Assembly (NCBI GenBank): GCA_002780065.1 | Contig: PEWQ01000197.1 | Span: 1-8,113, forward strand | DNA from: Candidatus Hydrogenedentes bacterium CG07_land_8_20_14_0_80_42_17 | GTDB taxonomy: Bacteria; UBA8481 | DNA: 8,113 nucleotides | Reading direction: 5' to 3' | In this document: positions 1 to 8,113 of the stretch, in pieces | Layout of the letters: each line of letters starts with the position of its first letter | Position numbering within the stretch: position 1 is the first letter of the stretch | Made by a program: the position numbers and the translations under genes | The notes under the pieces: generated by a model | The model's database searches: none | What the model was told of the DNA's origin: nothing | What the model saw: the letters and a program-made list of their open reading frames with translations, nothing else

Positions 1-1
1 G

Positions 2-3000
2 GTCGACGCAACTGATACAAACGATACGACTCCGACGTTTACGTGGTCCGGCGACGCCGACACATACACTATTCAAGTCTCGCCCGATCCGTCGTTTGCT
101 CTGTATTATGATTCGAGAACTGCTGCATCACCATATACACCATCGACTTATTACAAAGCAGATACTTATTACTGGCGAGTCCGAGCAAGAGACCGAGCAG
201 GAAACAGTCTATATGCTTCTTCGCGGATTCTTTATATTGACACATCAGTCACGGTCACGTTATCGAGCCCGTCTGCTGATACTGTGACGAACGACTCGAC
301 TCCGACCTTCACATGGTTCGGCGATGCTGATACGTATCGGTTTGAGATTTCAACTTCGCCGCTATTCACTTCTATTTACGATTCAAAAGTGACCTTATCT
401 GCCTCTTACACACCGTCAGGATATTTGAGCGATACATATTACTGGCACGTCGTGGCGATGGATGCTGTCGGCAATACAGAGACCTCAGCTTCGAGGATGA
501 TACGAATTGTAACTGGATTAACTCTTGCACTTACATCTCCATCCGATTCGTTCTTTACGAAGATAAATCCGACATTTATTTGGAGCACAACAGGGGAGAC
601 GAGCAGGATACAAATTGCTAAGAACTCATCTTTCACAAGTGTTTTCGATTCGTCGACAACGAATCTTAAGTCGTATGCTCCGCTGATATCGTTTACGCAT
701 GATACTTATTGGTGGCGAGTAATTTCTTGGGATGCCGCCGGCAACATTGACACTACTTCATCAAGAATTATCTATTTCGATACGGCTATATCGGTTTCGT
801 TGACTTCTCCGACTGATGGAATTAGAACGAACGATACGACTCCGACATTTGTTTGGAGTGGAGACGCTGATACTTACAAGATTCAAATCTCGAAGAGCTC
901 GAATTTTGATTCGATATTCGACAGCACCGTGACTTCATTGCTGAATTACACTCCGTCAGGATATTCACAGGATACATATTACTTCAGAGTCATTGCTGAG
1001 GACCGCGCCGGAAATATAGATACAACTTTTGTAAGATCAATTACGATCGATACTCAAATATCTGTGACGCTTGTTTCTCCGTCTAACTTACAGAGAACCA
1101 ACGATGTGACGCCGTCATTTACATGGTCGGGGGATGGAGATACATATCAAATTCAAATTTCGACTTCGCCGATATTTGCCGCTATTTTCGAGAGCGCGGT
1201 TTTATCAGCAACTTCGTTTACAACAATAACTTCATACTCGGCAGATACATATTACTGGCGCGTTATCGTCAGAGATGCGGCAGGAAATATCGATACAACT
1301 TCTACCCGCTCTTTCGTTGTCGATACAGATATTCTTCTTCTTTTGCCGGAAGAGTCGCGAATAACGAATGAAACTGTAATTCAATTTATATGGAGCGGAA
1401 CTGGAGACACTTATCGTTTTGAAATATCAAAGGATTCTGCATTTGCGACGATTTTCGATTCCTCTTCGGATTCGTCCGCAACTACGTTTACGTCCTCTTT
1501 CTCTTATGGAGCCGGAACTTATTATTGGAGGATTATCGCTAGAGATAATGCAGGAAACACCGAGACAAGTGACTTCAGAATTCTGACGATTGATACTATT
1601 GTGTCCGTTTCGCTTGTTTCACCGCTCAATCTTTCAGACACAAACGATACGACTCCGACATTTATTTGGTCAGGCGATGCTGACACTTACATAATTCAAG
1701 TTTCGCTCTTGCCTGCGTTCACTGTTATTTTTGATTCTGCTCAAACTTCCTCTCAAACTTATACTTCATCGAAGATTTATCCTCAAGATACATATTACTG
1801 GAGAGTTATTGCTCGAGATGTTGCAGGGAATATCGACACCACTTCTTCATGGAGTTTTGTAATTGATACCTTTGTTTCGGTAACGCTGACTTCACCCATC
1901 GACGTCTTTGCTACGAACGATACAACTCCGACGTTTACGTGGAGCGGCGATGCGATCACATATCGAATTGAGATAGCTTACAACGATCTGACCTTCGCAA
2001 CAATTTATGACAGCTCGTCAGGTGCGATTACCTCTTACACCTCAAATTCGAAACCGCTCTTTGCAGGACCGTATTACTGGCGCGTGACAGGAACTGATTC
2101 TCTCGGCAATAATTATGCTCCGGCTTCGAGATTCATATTTATCGATACTGAAGTTCGTGCCACGCTTAGCTCTCCTGCAAACGATACTACTGTGACAACG
2201 AATCAGCCTACTTTTGCCGTGACAGGTGATGCCGATACATACATCTACCAGATATCGACGTCGCCGACATTTGCATCAATATTCGATTCGAGTGTTAAGA
2301 CGAGCCAGAACTATACTCCCGCATTTAGTTATCCGTCGGATACATATTACTGGAGAGTTATTGGCGAGGACATGGCAGGCAATATTGTCACTTCTGATTC
2401 ATGGAGAATTTTCGTTACCTCTACATGCTCGGCAACTTTGACGTCACCGACCGACGGGCTCTACACTACCGATACAACGCCTTCATTTGTATGGAGCGGT
2501 ACTGCCGATACATATACCTTCCAGATATCGTCTTCGCCTGTTTTCGCTCTGATATTTGATTCGAATGTGAGCAATGGACTGACTTATACTCCTTCAAATT
2601 ATTCTGCTGGAATTTATTATTGGCGTGTCGTTGCAACTGACTCTACGGGCAACAGCTTTGTCACTTCTTCGAGAATAATTCGAATCGATACCGGAGTCAC
2701 CGTTGTCTTGACGAGCCCTGCTGATGGACTAATTACGAATGACAGCCGCCCGACATTTGTGTGGTCCGGCGATGCCGATACTTACACATTGCAAATATCA
2801 AAGTCTGCATCTTTTGCTTCAATACTTATTTCAGTCGATACTGCCGCGTCAAGTCATAAACTTATTTCAGCGCTTTCGGCTGATACTTATTATTGGCGCG
2901 TTATCGGCCTCGATCTCGCTGGAAATATCGAAACGACCTCGTCTCACTACTTGATTATCGATACAGGTGTGCTCGTCACTTTAATTTTGCCGGCGGATGG

Positions 3001-3238
3001 AACTCGATCTAACGATACCACTCCGACATTCACATGGAGCGGAAATGCCGACACGTATTCTATTCAGGTCGCGCGCGATTCTGCGTTCGCTATGATCACC
3101 GACAGCGCTGTCACATCGAGCCTGACCTACACTGCGCCGGGCTATTCTGTCGATACGTATTACTGGCGCGTTGCCGGTTACGATCTTGCCGGAAATTACG
3201 ATACTGCGTCTTATCGCACTCTTTATATCGATACGGGG
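2..3238 (+). repeat. Twelve in-frame tandem repeats, 89-93 codons each
   Basis: The conserved Trp codon of the TFxWSG strand recurs at 44, 314, 581, 854, 1124, 1391, 1667, 1940, (2219), 2492, 2762 and 3035, giving periods of 267-279 nt. In the unit at 2219 the Trp is replaced by Val (GTG) while GDADTY is kept. Parts of the repeats are nearly identical in DNA: GATACATATTACTGG recurs in several units, and ACGAACGATACGACTCCGAC-like blocks recur near the starts of units 1, 4, 7 and 8. Other parts have diverged, so the array looks old rather than freshly amplified. The first unit is cut by the window edge, so the array may be longer. Confidence 0.92.
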
Positions 3239-4369
3239 AGTGTGCCGGACAGCACTCCTTCTTATGCTATTGTTTACGTCAATGGTAAAGAGACTGTCAC
3301 TGTCAAGGGGACTCGGATATCTCTGGTTTCAGGTTATTGTGATACTTATTCGCAGGTTCTTTTTGAATTTTCGCCGGCGTCTGCGAACTCGTGGACGACT
3401 TGTACTCCGGTTTCAGGCAGTTCCAATCCGGATACTGTCGGCGCGTTCTGGAGCATGCAGTGGGATATTTCAGGACTGGCTTACGGCAGTTATGATGTCA
3501 GAGCGGTCGCGACTTTAACTTCGGGCGATGTTGATTCTACACCTTCGAGAATCACTTTGACGAATGATACAGTGAATGTTGTTTTTGAAGAGTGGCTCGA
3601 TACTTCGACGGGCGCCGGAATTCAGAGAAGGCTGATTTACATGAATGAGACCTCGACTGTGATGCTTTACGACGGCACTGTGATTACGATTCCTCCGGGA
3701 ATTATTTCCGGAACGGACAGCGTTTGGATACGAGTTAGTGCGTTCAACGGCGCTCCGCCGAGTTCGCCGGCTCCGGCAGACGGGCTTCTTATTCAAACAG
3801 GAAGCGGTGGAAGTTATCACCGCATTGAGTTTGAAAACGGAACTACGCAGTTCGAAAGAACTGTCATTCTTACATTCCCGTATTCGGAGCAGGGAATAAC
3901 ATCCGAGACTGATCTTGCGATTTACTATTATGATATTCCGACTTCTTCATGGATGAAGTTGGATAGTTGCGTTGTGAATGCGAATCAGAATTATGTCACC
4001 GCTTACGTGACTCACTTCACCGACTTTGCGGTATTCGCAGGCGTCGCGTCGAATAATCTTACGAATGTTTATGTCTATCCGAATCCATTTGTGCCGTACG
4101 ACAACGATGCGAATAACGGTCAGCCGTTTGTGCGCGGAATTGACGGAACAGGAATTATCTTCAAGAACGTCACAACTAATGTTGACATCGATATCTACAC
4201 GATAGCCGGCAGAAAAGTTTCGGCGATTCGAGCGATTAACACCGGCGGCAAGGTTCAATGGGACGCGAGAAATGATGATGGCCAAGAGGTTGCATCCGGC
4301 GCATACTTCGCGATTGTTCGGTCTCCTTCAGGCGAGCGCGCAGTTGTTAAGTTTGTGGTGATAAGATGA
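2..4369 (+). CDS. Giant secreted tandem Ig/FN3-like repeat protein with C-terminal FlgD-like sorting domain (5' partial)
   Basis: The frame is open from the first codon at position 2 to the TGA at 4367-4369, giving 1455 visible residues; the true start and any signal peptide lie upstream. The GTG at 284 is an internal Val codon inside repeat 2, not a start. Domain order in visible residues: twelve Ig/FN3-like repeats of about 90 residues (1-1079), each with a TPTFxWSGDADTY-like strand, a DTYYWRVxAxDxAGN core and an IDT linker; a divergent Ig-like domain with two Cys (about 1080-1188); a ZU5/GAIN-like domain with GTVITIPPGI and ending VTHFTDFAVFAG (about 1190-1345); and a C-terminal sorting-type domain with YPNPF (1359-1363). 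The repeats are rich in Ser/Thr/Asp and almost free of Cys. Family knowledge points to an extracellular adhesin, S-layer-like or filament protein; the binding partner is unknown. The stop overlaps the next gene's start, implying translational coupling to the PorV-like barrel. Confidence 0.9.
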   Translation, partial: VDATDTNDTTPTFTWSGDADTYTIQVSPDPSFALYYDSRTAASPYTPSTYYKADTYYWRVRARDRAGNSLYASSRILYIDTSVTVTLSSPSADTVTNDSTPTFTWFGDADTYRFEISTSPLFTSIYDSKVTLSASYTPSGYLSDTYYWHVVAMDAVGNTETSASRMIRIVTGLTLALTSPSDSFFTKINPTFIWSTTGETSRIQIAKNSSFTSVFDSSTTNLKSYAPLISFTHDTYWWRVISWDAAGNIDTTSSRIIYFDTAISVSLTSPTDGIRTNDTTPTFVWSGDADTYKIQISKSSNFDSIFDSTVTSLLNYTPSGYSQDTYYFRVIAEDRAGNIDTTFVRSITIDTQISVTLVSPSNLQRTNDVTPSFTWSGDGDTYQIQISTSPIFAAIFESAVLSATSFTTITSYSADTYYWRVIVRDAAGNIDTTSTRSFVVDTDILLLLPEESRITNETVIQFIWSGTGDTYRFEISKDSAFATIFDSSSDSSATTFTSSFSYGAGTYYWRIIARDNAGNTETSDFRILTIDTIVSVSLVSPLNLSDTNDTTPTFIWSGDADTYIIQVSLLPAFTVIFDSAQTSSQTYTSSKIYPQDTYYWRVIARDVAGNIDTTSSWSFVIDTFVSVTLTSPIDVFATNDTTPTFTWSGDAITYRIEIAYNDLTFATIYDSSSGAITSYTSNSKPLFAGPYYWRVTGTDSLGNNYAPASRFIFIDTEVRATLSSPANDTTVTTNQPTFAVTGDADTYIYQISTSPTFASIFDSSVKTSQNYTPAFSYPSDTYYWRVIGEDMAGNIVTSDSWRIFVTSTCSATLTSPTDGLYTTDTTPSFVWSGTADTYTFQISSSPVFALIFDSNVSNGLTYTPSNYSAGIYYWRVVATDSTGNSFVTSSRIIRIDTGVTVVLTSPADGLITNDSRPTFVWSGDADTYTLQISKSASFASILISVDTAASSHKLISALSADTYYWRVIGLDLAGNIETTSSHYLIIDTGVLVTLILPADGTRSNDTTPTFTWSGNADTYSIQVARDSAFAMITDSAVTSSLTYTAPGYSVDTYYWRVAGYDLAGNYDTASYRTLYIDTGSVPDSTPSYAIVYVNGKETVTVKGTRISLVSGYCDTYSQVLFEFSPASANSWTTCTPVSGSSNPDTVGAFWSMQWDISGLAYGSYDVRAVATLTSGDVDSTPSRITLTNDTVNVVFEEWLDTSTGAGIQRRLIYMNETSTVMLYDGTVITIPPGIISGTDSVWIRVSAFNGAPPSSPAPADGLLIQTGSGGSYHRIEFENGTTQFERTVILTFPYSEQGITSETDLAIYYYDIPTSSWMKLDSCVVNANQNYVTAYVTHFTDFAVFAGVASNNLTNVYVYPNPFVPYDNDANNGQPFVRGIDGTGIIFKNVTTNVDIDIYTIAGRKVSAIRAINTGGKVQWDARNDDGQEVASGAYFAIVRSPSGERAVVKFVVIR
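4058..4366 (+). other. C-terminal FlgD-like / type IX-like sorting domain of the giant protein
   Basis: About the last 100 residues begin with NVYVYPNPF, continue through a β-rich stretch (VDIDIYTIAGRKV, then WDARNDDGQEVASGAYFAIV) and end in VVKFVVIR. The YPNPF opening, the GRKV turn, the W(D/N)xxxxxGxxVxSGxYF block and a basic last residue after a hydrophobic strand are the hallmarks of FlgD-Ig-like and T9SS type A C-terminal domains. In Bacteroidetes such domains direct passage through the type IX outer-membrane machinery and are usually cleaved. Whether this organism has a full type IX system cannot be seen here. Confidence 0.8.
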
Positions 4370-5730
4370 GACTGCTCACTAATCACAAATCACTAATCAC
4401 TTTCTTGGCTCTATTCTTCTCGCTTCCTCTCTCCGCAGAATCCGGTAGCGGAGCAGGCTCTACGGGCGCAACGTTTCTTGAAATCGGAGTAGGAGCTCGC
4501 AACGCCGCAATGGGCGAGGCTGGCTCTGCATGGGCTGACGATGTGTATGGATTCTATTTCAACCCGGCTGGAGTTTCGAGAGCGTCTCGAAAAGAATTTG
4601 GACTCGTGCATAATAATCTCTTTCAGGATGTGAGCTACAATTATTTTGGTTACCTTCATCCTTTGGAAAATGTCGGAACTGTTGGAGCTAGCGTGACTTA
4701 TGTGGATCTCGGAACTGCGCGCCGCACTACGATTGCGTCGGCCGCAACGAACTCTTATCTCGATGATTTTTCTTCGCACGATATCGCGTTGGCTTTGCAT
4801 TATGCTCGGCCCGTAAGATCGTTTCTCGACCTTGGCGCAACTCTGAGATTCATTAATGAAAAACTCGACAATAAATCGGCAAGTGCTGTTGCGGTCGACT
4901 TTGGAGCTATTTGGCGGCCGCCGGTGACTGGACTTTCTCTTGGCGTTTCGCTCTCGAATTTGGGTTCTTCTCTGCGCTTTGTGCGGGAGAATGACGAACT
5001 GCCTTTGACGGTTCGAGTCGGAGCGGGATACAAGTCGCCGAATCGAATTTGGGGTCTTGCCGGAGATATGGTATGGGTGAAGAGACAGGATATTGAGGGG
5101 CACTTCGGAGGAGAAGTGTGGGTTTGGCCCGAGCATCTTGCGCTTCGCGGAGGATTCAATACCGGCAACGACGCAGGAAGCGGAGCCACTGCTGGAGCCG
5201 GATTCAGGTGGGACGATATTTCTGTCGACTATGCTTATACTCCGTTTGGAGACCTTGGAGATGCTCATCAGGTTTCTCTGACTTATCAGTTCGGTGAGCC
5301 GAGAAGTTTGCCGGGCGGAACTGTAAAACCAACTTCGACTTTATCGACCGCTTCTGACTACAACAGGGTAGAACCGCCCCTAAGCCCGCTTGCGGGCAGT
5401 TCTCTAAGACCGCTCGTTTATGTTTTTCCGTTTGCATATAGAAGTGGAGAACCTGACGGCGAGTGGATTGGTGAAGCCATGCCCGAGATTTTCTATCACA
5501 AGTGGAGAAGGCAAGGCATTGTCGCAAATTCGATTCGAGATGCGCGCATAACTGTGGAAGGAAACTATTGGATTGTCGGAAACACTTTAATTGTAAATGC
5601 AACTTTGAAGGATGAGGGCTGGCCGGCAAAAACTTTTCAGTGGCGCGGCGACGTGTCCAAGCCGTTTCTGCTCTTCGATGCTGTTGCAGAGAGTGTTTCG
5701 AGAGAACTATCTTTGCGATTAAAGATTTAG
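4366..5730 (+). CDS. PorV/PorQ-family outer-membrane β-barrel with C-terminal TolB/FlgO-like domain
   Basis: The 454-residue product starts at the ATG in the ATGA overlap with the upstream stop. Residues 1-24 form a signal peptide: a short basic n-region, the hydrophobic run LITFLALFFSL and a likely cut after PLSA. Residues 33-70 carry the PorV/PorQ (UPF0164-like) hallmark GATFLEIGVGARNAAMGEAG, followed by AWADDVYGFYFNPAGV. Alternating amphipathic strands run to the barrel end HQVSLTYQFG at about 310. Known PorV binds C-terminal-domain cargo leaving the type IX translocon and hands it to the attachment complex; PorQ-like relatives are less clear. Most family members end near here, but this one continues through a Pro/Ser-rich linker (311-348) into a compact domain at 349-452. 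No strong Shine-Dalgarno is visible (only GTGGTG), which fits translational coupling. The stop codon TAG lies inside the outer arm of a long palindrome. Family assignment is firm; PorV rather than PorQ function is not decided. Confidence 0.85.
   Translation: MRLLTNHKSLITFLALFFSLPLSAESGSGAGSTGATFLEIGVGARNAAMGEAGSAWADDVYGFYFNPAGVSRASRKEFGLVHNNLFQDVSYNYFGYLHPLENVGTVGASVTYVDLGTARRTTIASAATNSYLDDFSSHDIALALHYARPVRSFLDLGATLRFINEKLDNKSASAVAVDFGAIWRPPVTGLSLGVSLSNLGSSLRFVRENDELPLTVRVGAGYKSPNRIWGLAGDMVWVKRQDIEGHFGGEVWVWPEHLALRGGFNTGNDAGSGATAGAGFRWDDISVDYAYTPFGDLGDAHQVSLTYQFGEPRSLPGGTVKPTSTLSTASDYNRVEPPLSPLAGSSLRPLVYVFPFAYRSGEPDGEWIGEAMPEIFYHKWRRQGIVANSIRDARITVEGNYWIVGNTLIVNATLKDEGWPAKTFQWRGDVSKPFLLFDAVAESVSRELSLRLKI
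4376..4400 (+). repeat. 11-bp direct repeat in the signal-peptide coding start
   Basis: TCACTAATCAC occurs at 4376-4386 and again at 4390-4400, separated by AAA. The two copies are read in different frames because the 14-nt period is not a multiple of three. They encode the n-region and first hydrophobic residues of the PorV-like signal peptide (LTNHKSLIT). Confidence 0.7.
5370..5403. repeat. Nested palindrome within the PorV-like linker coding region
   Basis: The outer arms AGAACCGCCC (5370-5379) and GGGCAGTTCT (5394-5403) are complementary except for one C/A pair. An overlapping inner hairpin GCCCGC-TT-GCGGGC lies at 5384-5397. The element is much richer in G+C than the surrounding gene. 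It encodes residues 335-346, exactly the linker between barrel and TolB-like domain, and keeps the frame. It could be a small in-frame palindromic insertion or a local RNA hairpin. Confidence 0.6.
5410..5727 (+). other. TolB-N/FlgO-like domain at the C-terminus of the PorV-like protein
   Basis: Residues 349-452 open with PLVYVFPFAYRSGEPDGEWI, then GEAMPEIFYHKWRRQGIV, matching in order the 'VLPF..SGDPE..ylgdgl.e.l...L.....' start of the TolB-N-like/FlgO-like fold. The next block, ITVEGNYWIVGNTLIVNATL, then KDEG, fits the family's 'yvleGsvrr.gd.lrv.aqLvD' hairpin. The end, FLLFDAVAESVSREL, fits the final 'diF.lqdeiA.sva..L' helix. It is shorter than usual between these blocks. In known proteins the fold occurs in periplasmic or outer-membrane-associated factors and as a sensor attached to cyclases or regulators. 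Here it would sit on the periplasmic side of the barrel (inference from pattern reading only). Confidence 0.55.
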
Positions 5731-5777
5731 GGGGACACAATACCTAATTCGCCGAATTAGGTATTGTGTCCCTCTAA
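5727..5777. repeat. 51-nt near-perfect palindrome between convergent operons
   Basis: The core arms GGGACACAATACCTAATTCG (5732-5751) and its exact reverse complement (5753-5772) flank a single C at 5752. Beyond them the complementarity continues to 5727 and 5777 with only one G/T mismatch (5731/5773), giving arms of about 25. The TAG stop of the PorV-like gene (5728-5730) lies in the left arm. Neither side carries a T-tract, so it is not a textbook intrinsic terminator, although a hairpin this strong between convergent genes could still end transcription both ways. Size and symmetry also fit a REP-like or MITE-like mobile palindrome; I recall GGGGACACAATAC-type palindromes near REP-associated transposases, but cannot verify this here. 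Confidence 0.85.
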
Positions 5778-5837: not shown

Positions 5838-6101
5838 TCAAACTGTTTTGTCTTTATTTTCTTCGCTGTTTCCAACTTTTTCTTTCTTTTCTTCGATAAT
5901 CCCTAATTTCTCCCTGACCTCCTGTTTTATCTCTTCAGGAGGCTCCTGTTCTAAAGCTTCCTTTAAATCCATACTCGCTTTTTTAAAAGCGCCAACCGCC
6001 TTGCCAATCTGACGGCCGATATCAGGGAGCCTCTTAGGCCCGAAAACAATAAGCGCGACAATAAAAATTAGAATTAATTCCGGCATCCCTATATTAAACA
6101 T
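5838..6101 (-). CDS. tatA: Twin-arginine translocase subunit TatA/E family
   Basis: The 87-residue product starts at the ATG at 6101-6099. It has the classic order: a short periplasmic start (MFNIGMPEL), one short membrane helix (ILIFIVALIVF), the FGP hinge, the amphipathic helix KRLPDIGRQIGKAVGAFKKA, and a charged Lys/Glu-rich tail. TatA oligomers form the size-adaptable pore that moves folded proteins with twin-arginine signals across the inner membrane. An in-frame start at 6149 would add 16 residues and overlap hypA by 44 nt. I prefer 6101 because it follows the hypA stop by 4 nt, has GGAG 10 nt upstream, and fits the family's usual N-terminus. As last gene of a hydrogenase operon it probably helps export the enzyme, whose small subunit normally carries the Tat signal. 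TatB is less likely given the short tail and the FGPKRLPDIGR sequence. Confidence 0.9.
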   Translation of the reverse strand: MFNIGMPELILIFIVALIVFGPKRLPDIGRQIGKAVGAFKKASMDLKEALEQEPPEEIKQEVREKLGIIEEKKEKVGNSEENKDKTV

Positions 6102-6105
6102 TTTT

Positions 6106-6342
6106 CTACTGCTCCACTTCCAGTTCCAAAACCCGTGATTCCAACTCATCGCTATTGCGTATCTTTAAAACAGCTCCTTCTGCCACTGTCCCTTGGGAAA
6201 CCATTGTAAATGCACTGGTAAAAGTCGCGGCAGTTGTATGCCCATCGTCAGCAAGTTCCACCGTGATACTTTTAATCTTTTTACCGGCTGCTCTTCCTAA
6301 AGAAATGTTTAAAACTTCTTTGGCAATACCAACTTCATGCAT
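6106..6342 (-). CDS. hypA: HypA-like nickel chaperone lacking the zinc-binding domain
   Basis: The 78-residue product starts MHEVGIAKEVL, keeping the His2 (and Glu3) that bind nickel in HypA. The nickel domain follows: a helix, KKIKSITVEL, the FTSAFTMVSQGTVAEGAVLKI block matching HypA 'l.faF..v..Gt.aegA.L.I', and a last strand LESRVLELEVEQ matching 'GdeL.v..iEv'. Usual HypA is about 113-118 residues and carries two CxxC zinc motifs between these last two parts. Here that segment is absent, there is no Cys at all, and the flanking strands are joined by a short turn (NSDE). HypA passes nickel to the hydrogenase large subunit with HypB. The start lies 2 nt after the protease stop, with GGAAAG 7 nt upstream. 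The ends match on both sides of the gap, so this looks like a clean domain loss rather than decay. It may be nickel-binding but unable to sense or bind zinc, or have a specialised role for this enzyme. Confidence 0.82.
   Translation of the reverse strand: MHEVGIAKEVLNISLGRAAGKKIKSITVELADDGHTTAATFTSAFTMVSQGTVAEGAVLKIRNSDELESRVLELEVEQ
6112..6115 (-). promoter_or_regulatory. Ribosome binding site for tatA (decides the start)
   Basis: GGAG on the minus strand lies 10 nt before the ATG at 6101, within the last codons of hypA. It supports the shorter tatA start over the in-frame start at 6149. Confidence 0.5.
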
Positions 6343-6344
6343 AA

Positions 6345-6791
6345 TTAGTCTTTCCGGATTTCTTCTATCACCAATTTACTTAATTTAGGCAAAATTTTTT
6401 CTATCTCTTCTGATAATTCCATCCCCCATTCCATAACTTTAGGTTGTACCCCGAATATGACAATTGGAGGCACAGTCCCCAGTTTCTGCATAAGCTGAAA
6501 TATATCTTTCAGAGTAATATCATGAAGTGAAGTTTTGGGAAAGGAATCGGTGGAGAAATCATCAGGGGTAAACTTATAGATGTCGCCGGGTTTGCCTTCG
6601 GCTCTTATTGCATCTACAATCACGACCTTCTCTGCGCCCAGAATATGAGGCATCAGGTCAAAGCCGCCGGTGGCACCGTCGATTAATTCCACATTGCCGG
6701 GTAATGGCTGATTCTTAAGATATTCTATAAGATGAACCCCTATGCCTTCGTCCTTCAAGAGAAGATTTCCGCAGCCGATAATTTTCTTCAT
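6345..6791 (-). CDS. [NiFe] hydrogenase maturation endopeptidase (M52; HyaD/HybD/HycI type)
   Basis: The 148-residue length is typical of the M52 family. The N-terminal GCGN, then KDEGIGVH, matches the family G(I/C)GN...DEG start. The three residues that align with the nickel ligands of E. coli HybD (Glu16, Asp62, His93) appear as Glu15, Asp60 (in VIVDAIRA) and His90 (in TSLHDITL). The enzyme cuts the C-terminal tail off the large subunit once nickel is in place, which locks the active site. The neighbouring large subunit carries such a tail, so this is its likely dedicated protease. The ATG lies 9 nt after the large-subunit stop, with only a weak Shine-Dalgarno (GGTG), suggesting coupled translation. 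The closest named type cannot be decided by eye. Confidence 0.93.
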   Translation of the reverse strand: MKKIIGCGNLLLKDEGIGVHLIEYLKNQPLPGNVELIDGATGGFDLMPHILGAEKVVIVDAIRAEGKPGDIYKFTPDDFSTDSFPKTSLHDITLKDIFQLMQKLGTVPPIVIFGVQPKVMEWGMELSEEIEKILPKLSKLVIEEIRKD

Positions 6792-6800
6792 AGAAAATGA

Positions 6801-8113
6801 TTACACCACGCGGAATTTCTTCATTTCTCCGTTGGGTTTAATCAAATGCACGGCGCAGGCAAGACACGGATCAAAAGAACGAATAATCCTGACAATCTCA
6901 AAGGGATTGTCCGGATCAACAATAGGAGTCCCTACCAGCGCCTCTTCTATCGGGCCGCGTACACCTTTATCATCGCGCGGACATGCGTTCCAGGTTGTAG
7001 GAACTACTGCCTGATAATTCTCAATCTTTTTGCCGGAAATCTTAATCCAGTGGCCTAAAGCACCTCGGGCAGCTTCGGTCAAACCCATTCCTTCGCCGGA
7101 TTCAGGCACTGCACATTCTGCCCAAACGGGTTCTCCGGGTTTTAACTGCAGGAGCCATTCTTCCATCGCATCGGCAATTTTCTTTGTTTCCAGGGCTCTT
7201 GCTGCATGGCGGTCAATCACCGATATTCCCTGGCGATAATCATCGTTCACCCACATCCTGGCCAATGGTCCGACTTCATAAGGTTTGCCGTCATAACGCG
7301 GGGCCTTTAACCAGCTGTAAGCTTCTGGTTTTTCAGGTTCAGGCTCTGTAGCACCGCTGGCGGGATTCTTTCCTGAGGTACTATCTTTATACCAGGAAAA
7401 TTTAACATCCTCGGTAATTTTCCTGGGATCCATAGTGAGAATTCTTTTTTCAGTATACCTTCCAGCTTTCAATAACTTTGTCTTTCCTGCGGAATCCAAG
7501 GGAAATACACCATAAGCAAGAAGATTTTTGTATCCTACGCCTATGGTCTTGTAATCATCATATACCTCGGCTACTGCCAGGACATCCGGGATATACATAT
7601 CATTGATAAACGCCTGCAATTCGCGCAGGCGCCACAAAAAAGATGCAATTTTATCCACGCTGGGCTGCACGGTAACTCCGCCGGGAGTCATAGCCACTTG
7701 ATGAGGCATTTTTCCACCAAATATGGCGCCCATCTCATGGGCTTTCATACGCATATGAAGGGCCTGCAAATAATGACTCACGCAGACGTCATTGATTTTC
7801 TTAGGCAGGCGATAATCTCCTTTATATCTGGGAATAAACGGCGCTACATCCGGGCCAACAACATAATCCAAGGCGGCCAGATGATAAAAATGCAGGATAT
7901 GCGATTGAATGATATTCGAACCCAATATCAGGTTGCGGATAATCCTGCCGTTATCCGGGGTAATGACTTTAAAAGCATCGTCCAGACATAGAGAAGAAGC
8001 GGTAGCATGTCCGATAGGACAGACGCCGCAGATTCTCTGCGTGATGTGCTGGGCATCACGGGGGTCCCTTCCTTTTAAAATAACTTCAATACCTCTCCAA
8101 AGAGTCCCTGAAC
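6801..8113 (-). CDS. [NiFe] hydrogenase large subunit, group 1-like (5' partial)
   Basis: The frame stays open to the window edge, giving 436 visible residues; the TTG at 7925 is an internal Leu. The N-terminal part GTLWRGIEVILKGRDPRDAQ leads into the L1 motif RICGVCPIGH (Cys28 and Cys31, visible numbering). The C-terminal L2 motif is SFDPCLACAVH (Cys416 and Cys419). These four Cys ligate the Ni-Fe(CN)2CO centre. The Arg of the EAxRGALGHW motif is kept (Arg349), although the usual Pro before it is Ala. Group 1 traits include GGKMPHQ, the YSWLKAPRYDGKPYEVGPLAR block and a tail after the L2 His (14 residues, LIKPNGEMKKFRVV) of the kind the adjacent protease removes. Roughly 35-40 N-terminal residues are missing. 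The reconstructed length of about 475 is short for periplasmic uptake enzymes (about 550-600). The small subunit should lie upstream, beyond 8113. With tatA in the operon, an exported, H2-oxidising enzyme is the likeliest role. Confidence 0.95.
   Translation of the reverse strand, partial: SGTLWRGIEVILKGRDPRDAQHITQRICGVCPIGHATASSLCLDDAFKVITPDNGRIIRNLILGSNIIQSHILHFYHLAALDYVVGPDVAPFIPRYKGDYRLPKKINDVCVSHYLQALHMRMKAHEMGAIFGGKMPHQVAMTPGGVTVQPSVDKIASFLWRLRELQAFINDMYIPDVLAVAEVYDDYKTIGVGYKNLLAYGVFPLDSAGKTKLLKAGRYTEKRILTMDPRKITEDVKFSWYKDSTSGKNPASGATEPEPEKPEAYSWLKAPRYDGKPYEVGPLARMWVNDDYRQGISVIDRHAARALETKKIADAMEEWLLQLKPGEPVWAECAVPESGEGMGLTEAARGALGHWIKISGKKIENYQAVVPTTWNACPRDDKGVRGPIEEALVGTPIVDPDNPFEIVRIIRSFDPCLACAVHLIKPNGEMKKFRVV

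Follow-up and report, generated by a model that had tools for sequence, protein, structure and literature searches.

The analysed window is the complete contig C169 (PEWQ01000197.1; 8113 bp) of a bin of 2.39 Mb (87% complete, 0.7% contamination). Its minus strand carries, in this order, genes for a [NiFe] hydrogenase large subunit, a hydrogenase maturation protease, a short HypA homologue (hereafter mini-HypA) and a TatA, with intergenic gaps of 9, 2 and 4 bp (Table 1). The tight hydrogenase operon proposed in a preliminary description of this DNA is borne out: Pfam profiles confirm the large subunit, the protease and tatA, and the mini-HypA gene starts 2 bp past the protease stop and itself stops 4 bp before the tatA start. 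The large subunit, with an NF033181 score of 647 bits (cut-off 600), lacks its N-terminus, where the contig end cuts the gene, and its C-terminus reads DPCLACAVH-LIKPNGEMKKFRVV, that is, an extension of 14 residues after DPCLACAVH. In this family, the C-terminal extension of the large subunit is cleaved by the maturation protease after nickel insertion. Between the operon and a convergent porV-like gene, at a change in composition, lies a perfect inverted repeat that was found neither in the other fetched loci nor in viral contigs. Positions 1-5730 encode, on the plus strand, a protein of 1455 aa or more built of repeated 'DTYYWRV...AGN' units and then a PorV-family protein, which suggests a putative type IX secretion cargo and its partner.

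Table 1. Features of the hydrogenase region of the window.
Feature	Coordinates	Strand	Details
Perfect inverted repeat	5732..5772	.	20-bp arms, 1-bp spacer: GGGACACAATACCTAATTCG-C-CGAATTAGGTATTGTGTCCC
TatA/E-type twin-arginine translocase subunit	5838..6101	-	87 aa from ATG at 6101; PF02416 65.1 bits
Mini-HypA	6106..6342	-	78 aa, MHE start, nickel domain and last beta-strand, no zinc domain, no Cys
Met1-His2-Glu3 codons	6334..6342	-	MHE motif, nickel-binding in HypA (PMC5557546)
Hydrogenase maturation protease, HycI/HupD family	6345..6791	-	148 aa; PF01750 92.7 bits; TIGR00072 141 bits
[NiFe] hydrogenase large subunit	6801..8111	-	436 aa; PF00374 468.7 bits

The mini-HypA reading frame translates as MHEVGIAKEVLNISLGRAAGKKIKSITVELADDGHTTAATFTSAFTMVSQGTVAEGAVLKIRNSDELESRVLELEVEQ and ends in a TAG stop. 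The Pfam HypA profile PF01155 matches it with 35.2 bits (E 1.4e-8, cut-off 28.9) over profile positions 1-66 of 112; with the NCBI equivalog TIGR00100 it scores 27.9 bits, under the cut-off of 88.1, and six other zinc-less HypAs ('minis', see below) also stay beneath that value, at 32-66 bits. A search of the PDB with a profile built from the minis returned HypA structures only (3a43 at 9.5e-14; 6g81 and 2kdx at 1.1e-8); weak phmmer matches of the single sequence to lectins were dismissed as meaningless. When the protein is aligned with full-length HypAs, the stretch missing from it is that of the CxxC...CxxC module, after which the last strand aligns again. The AlphaFold2 model, for which nine full-length HypA relatives served as input, has a pLDDT of 86 and the order helix-strand-helix-strand-strand (alpha-beta-alpha-beta-beta); VIA-align places 78/78 of its residues on residues 1..135 of Thermococcus kodakarensis HypA 3a43 at 1.5 Å (Z 13.7), with Z 12.4 for Helicobacter pylori HypA and 7.5 for the top unrelated folds. 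Because the alignment behind the model already held HypAs, we take the fold match as support rather than independent proof. As modelled, the protein is a nickel domain plus last strand from which the zinc domain has been cut out, and this reading holds. The profile score, the structural fit and the lack of any CxxC remnant agree with the preliminary description, which had called the protein a Cys-free HypA whose zinc domain is cleanly absent and had proposed the overlay on a known HypA.

In the 220 bp that follow the gene, none of the reading frames holds a paired CxxC that could be a remnant of the zinc domain, and this applies to the window gene as to all of the 28 minis known to us in total. 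Given this, and given the position of the tatA start just past the stop, no frameshift conceals the remainder of a HypA here, and we reject the idea of a pseudogene or frameshifted gene. The MHE at residues 1-3 is invariant across the minis (28/28), F45 is conserved in 96% and the strand-1 Gly in 82% of them, and the AEGA-x-L motif and the last-strand Glu occur at frequencies similar to those in full-length HypA. The window protein keeps MHE and an AEGAVLKI core and has Ala31 in place of the conserved strand-1 Gly. Asp40 was considered as a nickel ligand and discarded: its column in the HMM alignment is unconserved in the minis and in the T. kodakarensis protein. Since a check for the zinc site came out negative, we file the window protein apart from canonical HypA, as a zinc-less variant in the HypA superfamily.

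The 28 distinct zinc-less HypAs come from 27 genomes, and HypA lengths are bimodal, with 78-98 aa for the minis (n=28) vs 110-137 aa for full-length proteins (n=67) and none between. Of 386 genomes surveyed throughout the domain, 184 had HypA, and 18 of these 184, belonging to 15 families and including the window's own genome, had a zinc-less HypA once weak-scoring HypAs had been re-read; the 18 are a lower bound, as in genomes with a strong full-length match the count covers second copies only up to E 1e-6. The 'HypA' matches in G086 and G226 were set aside for their rubrerythrin-like appearance, judged by eye. A full-length HypA was not found in 26 of the 27 mini-bearing genomes, the window genome being the sole carrier of both forms; most of these genomes are fragmented bins, so that 'only copy' means only copy found. 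The same pattern, a mini and no full-length HypA, is seen in G142, a single 2.27-Mb contig, and in G160, which is 100% complete. The view of the mini as a paralogue, suggested in the preliminary description, fits the window bin as assembled, but minis are not usually an extra copy.

With the large subunit as query, G284 (98% complete) was found, where a small subunit, a large subunit and a protease are followed by an 85-aa Cys-free HypA, the only HypA found in that genome, and by HypF, HypC, HypD and HypE. In the phylum of G284, 11 of 19 genomes carry minis of 80-98 aa, each the sole HypA found, and two others carry full-length HypA. As for close relatives of the window mini, a scan of genome contigs yielded full-length HypAs only, and 98 relatives gave a single weak match, again to a full-length HypA. 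A second zinc-less HypA of G367, at L169 (G367:C28, 6496-6753), is a divergent protein of 85 aa encoded away from hydrogenase genes. With this recurrence in view, HypA can probably do without the zinc module that descriptions of the family assign to every member.

Hydrogenase or hyp genes adjoin 24 of the 28 minis, the exceptions being those of G207, G262 and G402 and the second G367 copy. The neighbour is HypF, with or without C, D and E, in G284, G147, G392, G129, G039, G184 and G157 (protease-mini-HypF in G284, mini-HypF-C-D-E in G147), HypB in G379, G386-389, G125, G160 and G299 (protease-mini-HypB in G379 and G387; mini-HypB adjoining a group-1 hydrogenase in G160 and G299), and HypC in G171. 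Group-3-like hydrogenases accompany the mini in G142, G238, G279, G367, G157, G390, G391 and G401, the first five with the order hydrogenase-protease-mini; hydrogenase groups were assigned here by similarity to reference sequences, without a formal classifier. In the mini operons of G390, G391, G367, G142, G279 and G238, a HypC domain is fused to a HydE-like radical-SAM enzyme, and a HydG-like enzyme is encoded in those of G390, G391 (545 bits vs a cut-off of 312) and G401 (loci L108, L109 and L111 for G390, G391 and G401; L165, L166, L168 and L171 for G367, G142, G279 and G238). None of these seven genomes yielded a HypD, and their group-3-like operons possibly combine an [FeFe]-style supply of CO and CN with a [NiFe] enzyme.

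The preliminary description had further proposed to look for a tie of zinc-less HypAs to hydrogenase-tatA operons, and as a general link this is not supported. In G209, which has the nearest relative found of the window's hydrogenase (large subunit 64% identical), protease, tatA, small and large subunit form one cluster (G209:C15, L046) without a mini-HypA, and a full-length HypA is encoded elsewhere; no other mini has tatA among the neighbours inspected. We accordingly rejected tatA as a part of the system. It recurs, instead, with the window's type of hydrogenase.

HypB was missing from 11 of the 17 mini-only genomes of the survey vs 35 of the 167 genomes with full-length HypA (Fisher p 0.0003), as counted with TIGR00073 at E <= 1e-40 in the 386 genomes, a count outside which the archaeal-type ATPase HypB falls. 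When the losses of HypB and of the zinc module are mapped on the HypA tree, only three independent pairs are well supported, and there is no significance. We regard a tie between the two losses as a lead, not demonstrably beyond phylogeny. In the systems described so far, HypA gains its nanomolar nickel site through HypB in the NTP-bound state (PMC12134894), and a HypA that lacks both the zinc domain and HypB would thus need a different working mode. Among the 35 genomes with full-length HypA and no TIGR00073 HypB, G070, G090 and G359 carry a divergent HypA of about 120 aa; in these 35, either HypB-free nickel insertion would be common or another NTPase would substitute.

We consider it likely that the mini is a pared-down chaperone which uses MHE to load nickel into the adjacent [NiFe] large subunit and does without a zinc module. 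Under this model, the N-terminal Met1-His2-Glu3 site, for which nickel binding is established in HypA (PMC5557546), would bind Ni(II), and the alpha/beta nickel domain would dock on the still immature large subunit, whose gene is the second one upstream. Nickel would presumably be handed over once the Fe(CN)2CO group has been installed, and the neighbouring protease would afterwards cut the C-terminal extension. The zinc finger, a sensor of nickel and pH in the HypAs studied, would be dispensed with, nickel capture would probably be constitutive and unsensed, and HypB might not be needed, so that the chaperone would act independently of both zinc and HypB. H. pylori HypA has a zinc site that is sensitive to pH and nickel, and changes of the Cys residues of this site to Ala or Asp leave hydrogenase activity at about 9-60% of wild type (PMC5557546, PMC7055735); a zinc-less HypA must therefore dispense with the switch or compensate for it. 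The operon makes it plausible that the window mini works for its one enzyme, as the preliminary description predicted. Counted against the mini as chaperone are Ala31 and the long branch of the protein in the HypA tree, which are compatible with relaxed constraint.

The bin of the window also encodes a full-length HypA (117 aa, four Cys) that adjoins HypB on contig C124, an answer, as far as HypA and HypB are concerned, to a check proposed in the preliminary description. This protein groups with the full-length HypA of the same-order genome G001 (support 100/95), a placement that fits a native copy. In the same tree, computed on 80 shared columns, the window mini is a long branch among full-length HypAs, without supported neighbours; the best tree has nine changes between the forms, of which the starred branches force three, and a single clade of minis is neither established nor rejected (AU p 0.27) on this short alignment. 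With full-length HypA and HypB in the bin, the working nickel donor may be a protein other than the window mini, and two alternative readings build on this. It could be a decaying paralogue, the shortened remnant of a full-length HypA made redundant by the HypA-HypB pair on C124, and the long branch and the loss of a strand-1 Gly that is 82-97% conserved elsewhere would agree with that; however, the deletion takes exactly the zinc module and spares the last strand, the frame is open and fits closely between its neighbours, the MHE, the AEGAVLKI core and the fold are kept, and the same architecture is the only HypA found in 26 other genomes, so that we regard decay as improbable. Somewhat less remote, although still unlikely in our judgement, is a role as partner rather than donor, in which the mini would be a docking or specificity factor on the large subunit (compare the HypA/HybF and HypC/HybG paralogues), with nickel supplied by full-length HypA-HypB. 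The presence of both forms in the bin and the hydrogenase specificity conferred by HypA paralogues in multi-hydrogenase bacteria (PMC12134894) speak for it, but MHE is invariant in the minis, and elsewhere no full-length partner of the mini was found.

A third reading concerns the contig rather than the protein. The tetranucleotide composition of positions 5838-8113 correlates with the genome mean at r 0.60, with all of 30 equal-length controls at 0.76 or above, and with the left half of the contig at r 0.23; as an outlier in composition, the hydrogenase operon may have arrived by transfer, been assigned to the wrong bin or been joined wrongly, in the last case through a chimeric junction in or close to the inverted repeat, which sits at the composition boundary. 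Moreover, no large-subunit match at E <= 1e-60 was found in G001, the only same-order genome sampled. If the contig were chimeric or mis-binned, the coexistence of mini and full-length HypA in one cell would be an artefact, although the mini itself would be real. However, recent horizontal transfer produces an identical signal, the left half is itself atypical owing to its repetitive gene, and GC is similar across the contig. On balance, we hold a chimeric or mis-binned contig to be a serious possibility, albeit not the favoured one, and it is compatible with the explanation of the protein as a minimal chaperone.

Taken together, about one in ten of the sampled HypA-bearing bacterial genomes has a zinc-less HypA, mostly as the sole copy found. 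From this recurrence, the nickel domain would seem to be the minimal unit, with the zinc module as an accessory to it. On a broader proposal, which we advance tentatively, zinc-less HypA would be a widespread second form of nickel insertion: a chaperone of one domain would mature [NiFe] hydrogenases without a zinc switch and, in many lineages, without any HypB NTPase. In some it would be paired with a hybrid route (no HypD, a HypC joined to a HydE-like radical-SAM enzyme and, in some genomes, an adjacent HydG), and it could be the missing HypA of acetogenic clostridia. A review states a zinc site for all HypA proteins (PMC7055735), and a full-text literature search, mostly outside subscription journals, returned no paper on zinc-less HypA, which is weak evidence of novelty. 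The lack of the zinc site explains how motif-based annotation (TIGR00100, CxxC) can overlook the HypA of bacteria that have hydrogenases, and the minis offer a small natural test of the purpose of the zinc site and of HypB.

Among known systems, the window protein resembles HypA/HybF (PF01155; 3a43, 5aun, 6g81, 2kdx) in its MHE, its alpha-beta-alpha-beta-beta nickel domain with the last strand, and its operon with hydrogenase and protease genes, and differs in the lack of the CxxC...CxxC module and of any Cys, with 78 aa vs 110-137. With the HypA of Escherichia coli and H. pylori, which works with the HypB GTPase, it would share the expected insertion of nickel into the large subunit before protease cleavage; in contrast to these proteins, the mini is without zinc-dependent sensing, and a majority of the mini-only survey genomes yielded no HypB. 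In the Clostridium autoethanogenum and C. ljungdahlii group, HypCDEF are reported to be present, with no HypA or HypB recognisable by known motifs (PMC9431212). G284, G147 and G157 similarly have HypCDEF without canonical HypA and HypB, and, by analogy, a mini-HypA could explain the absent HypA of the clostridial acetogens.
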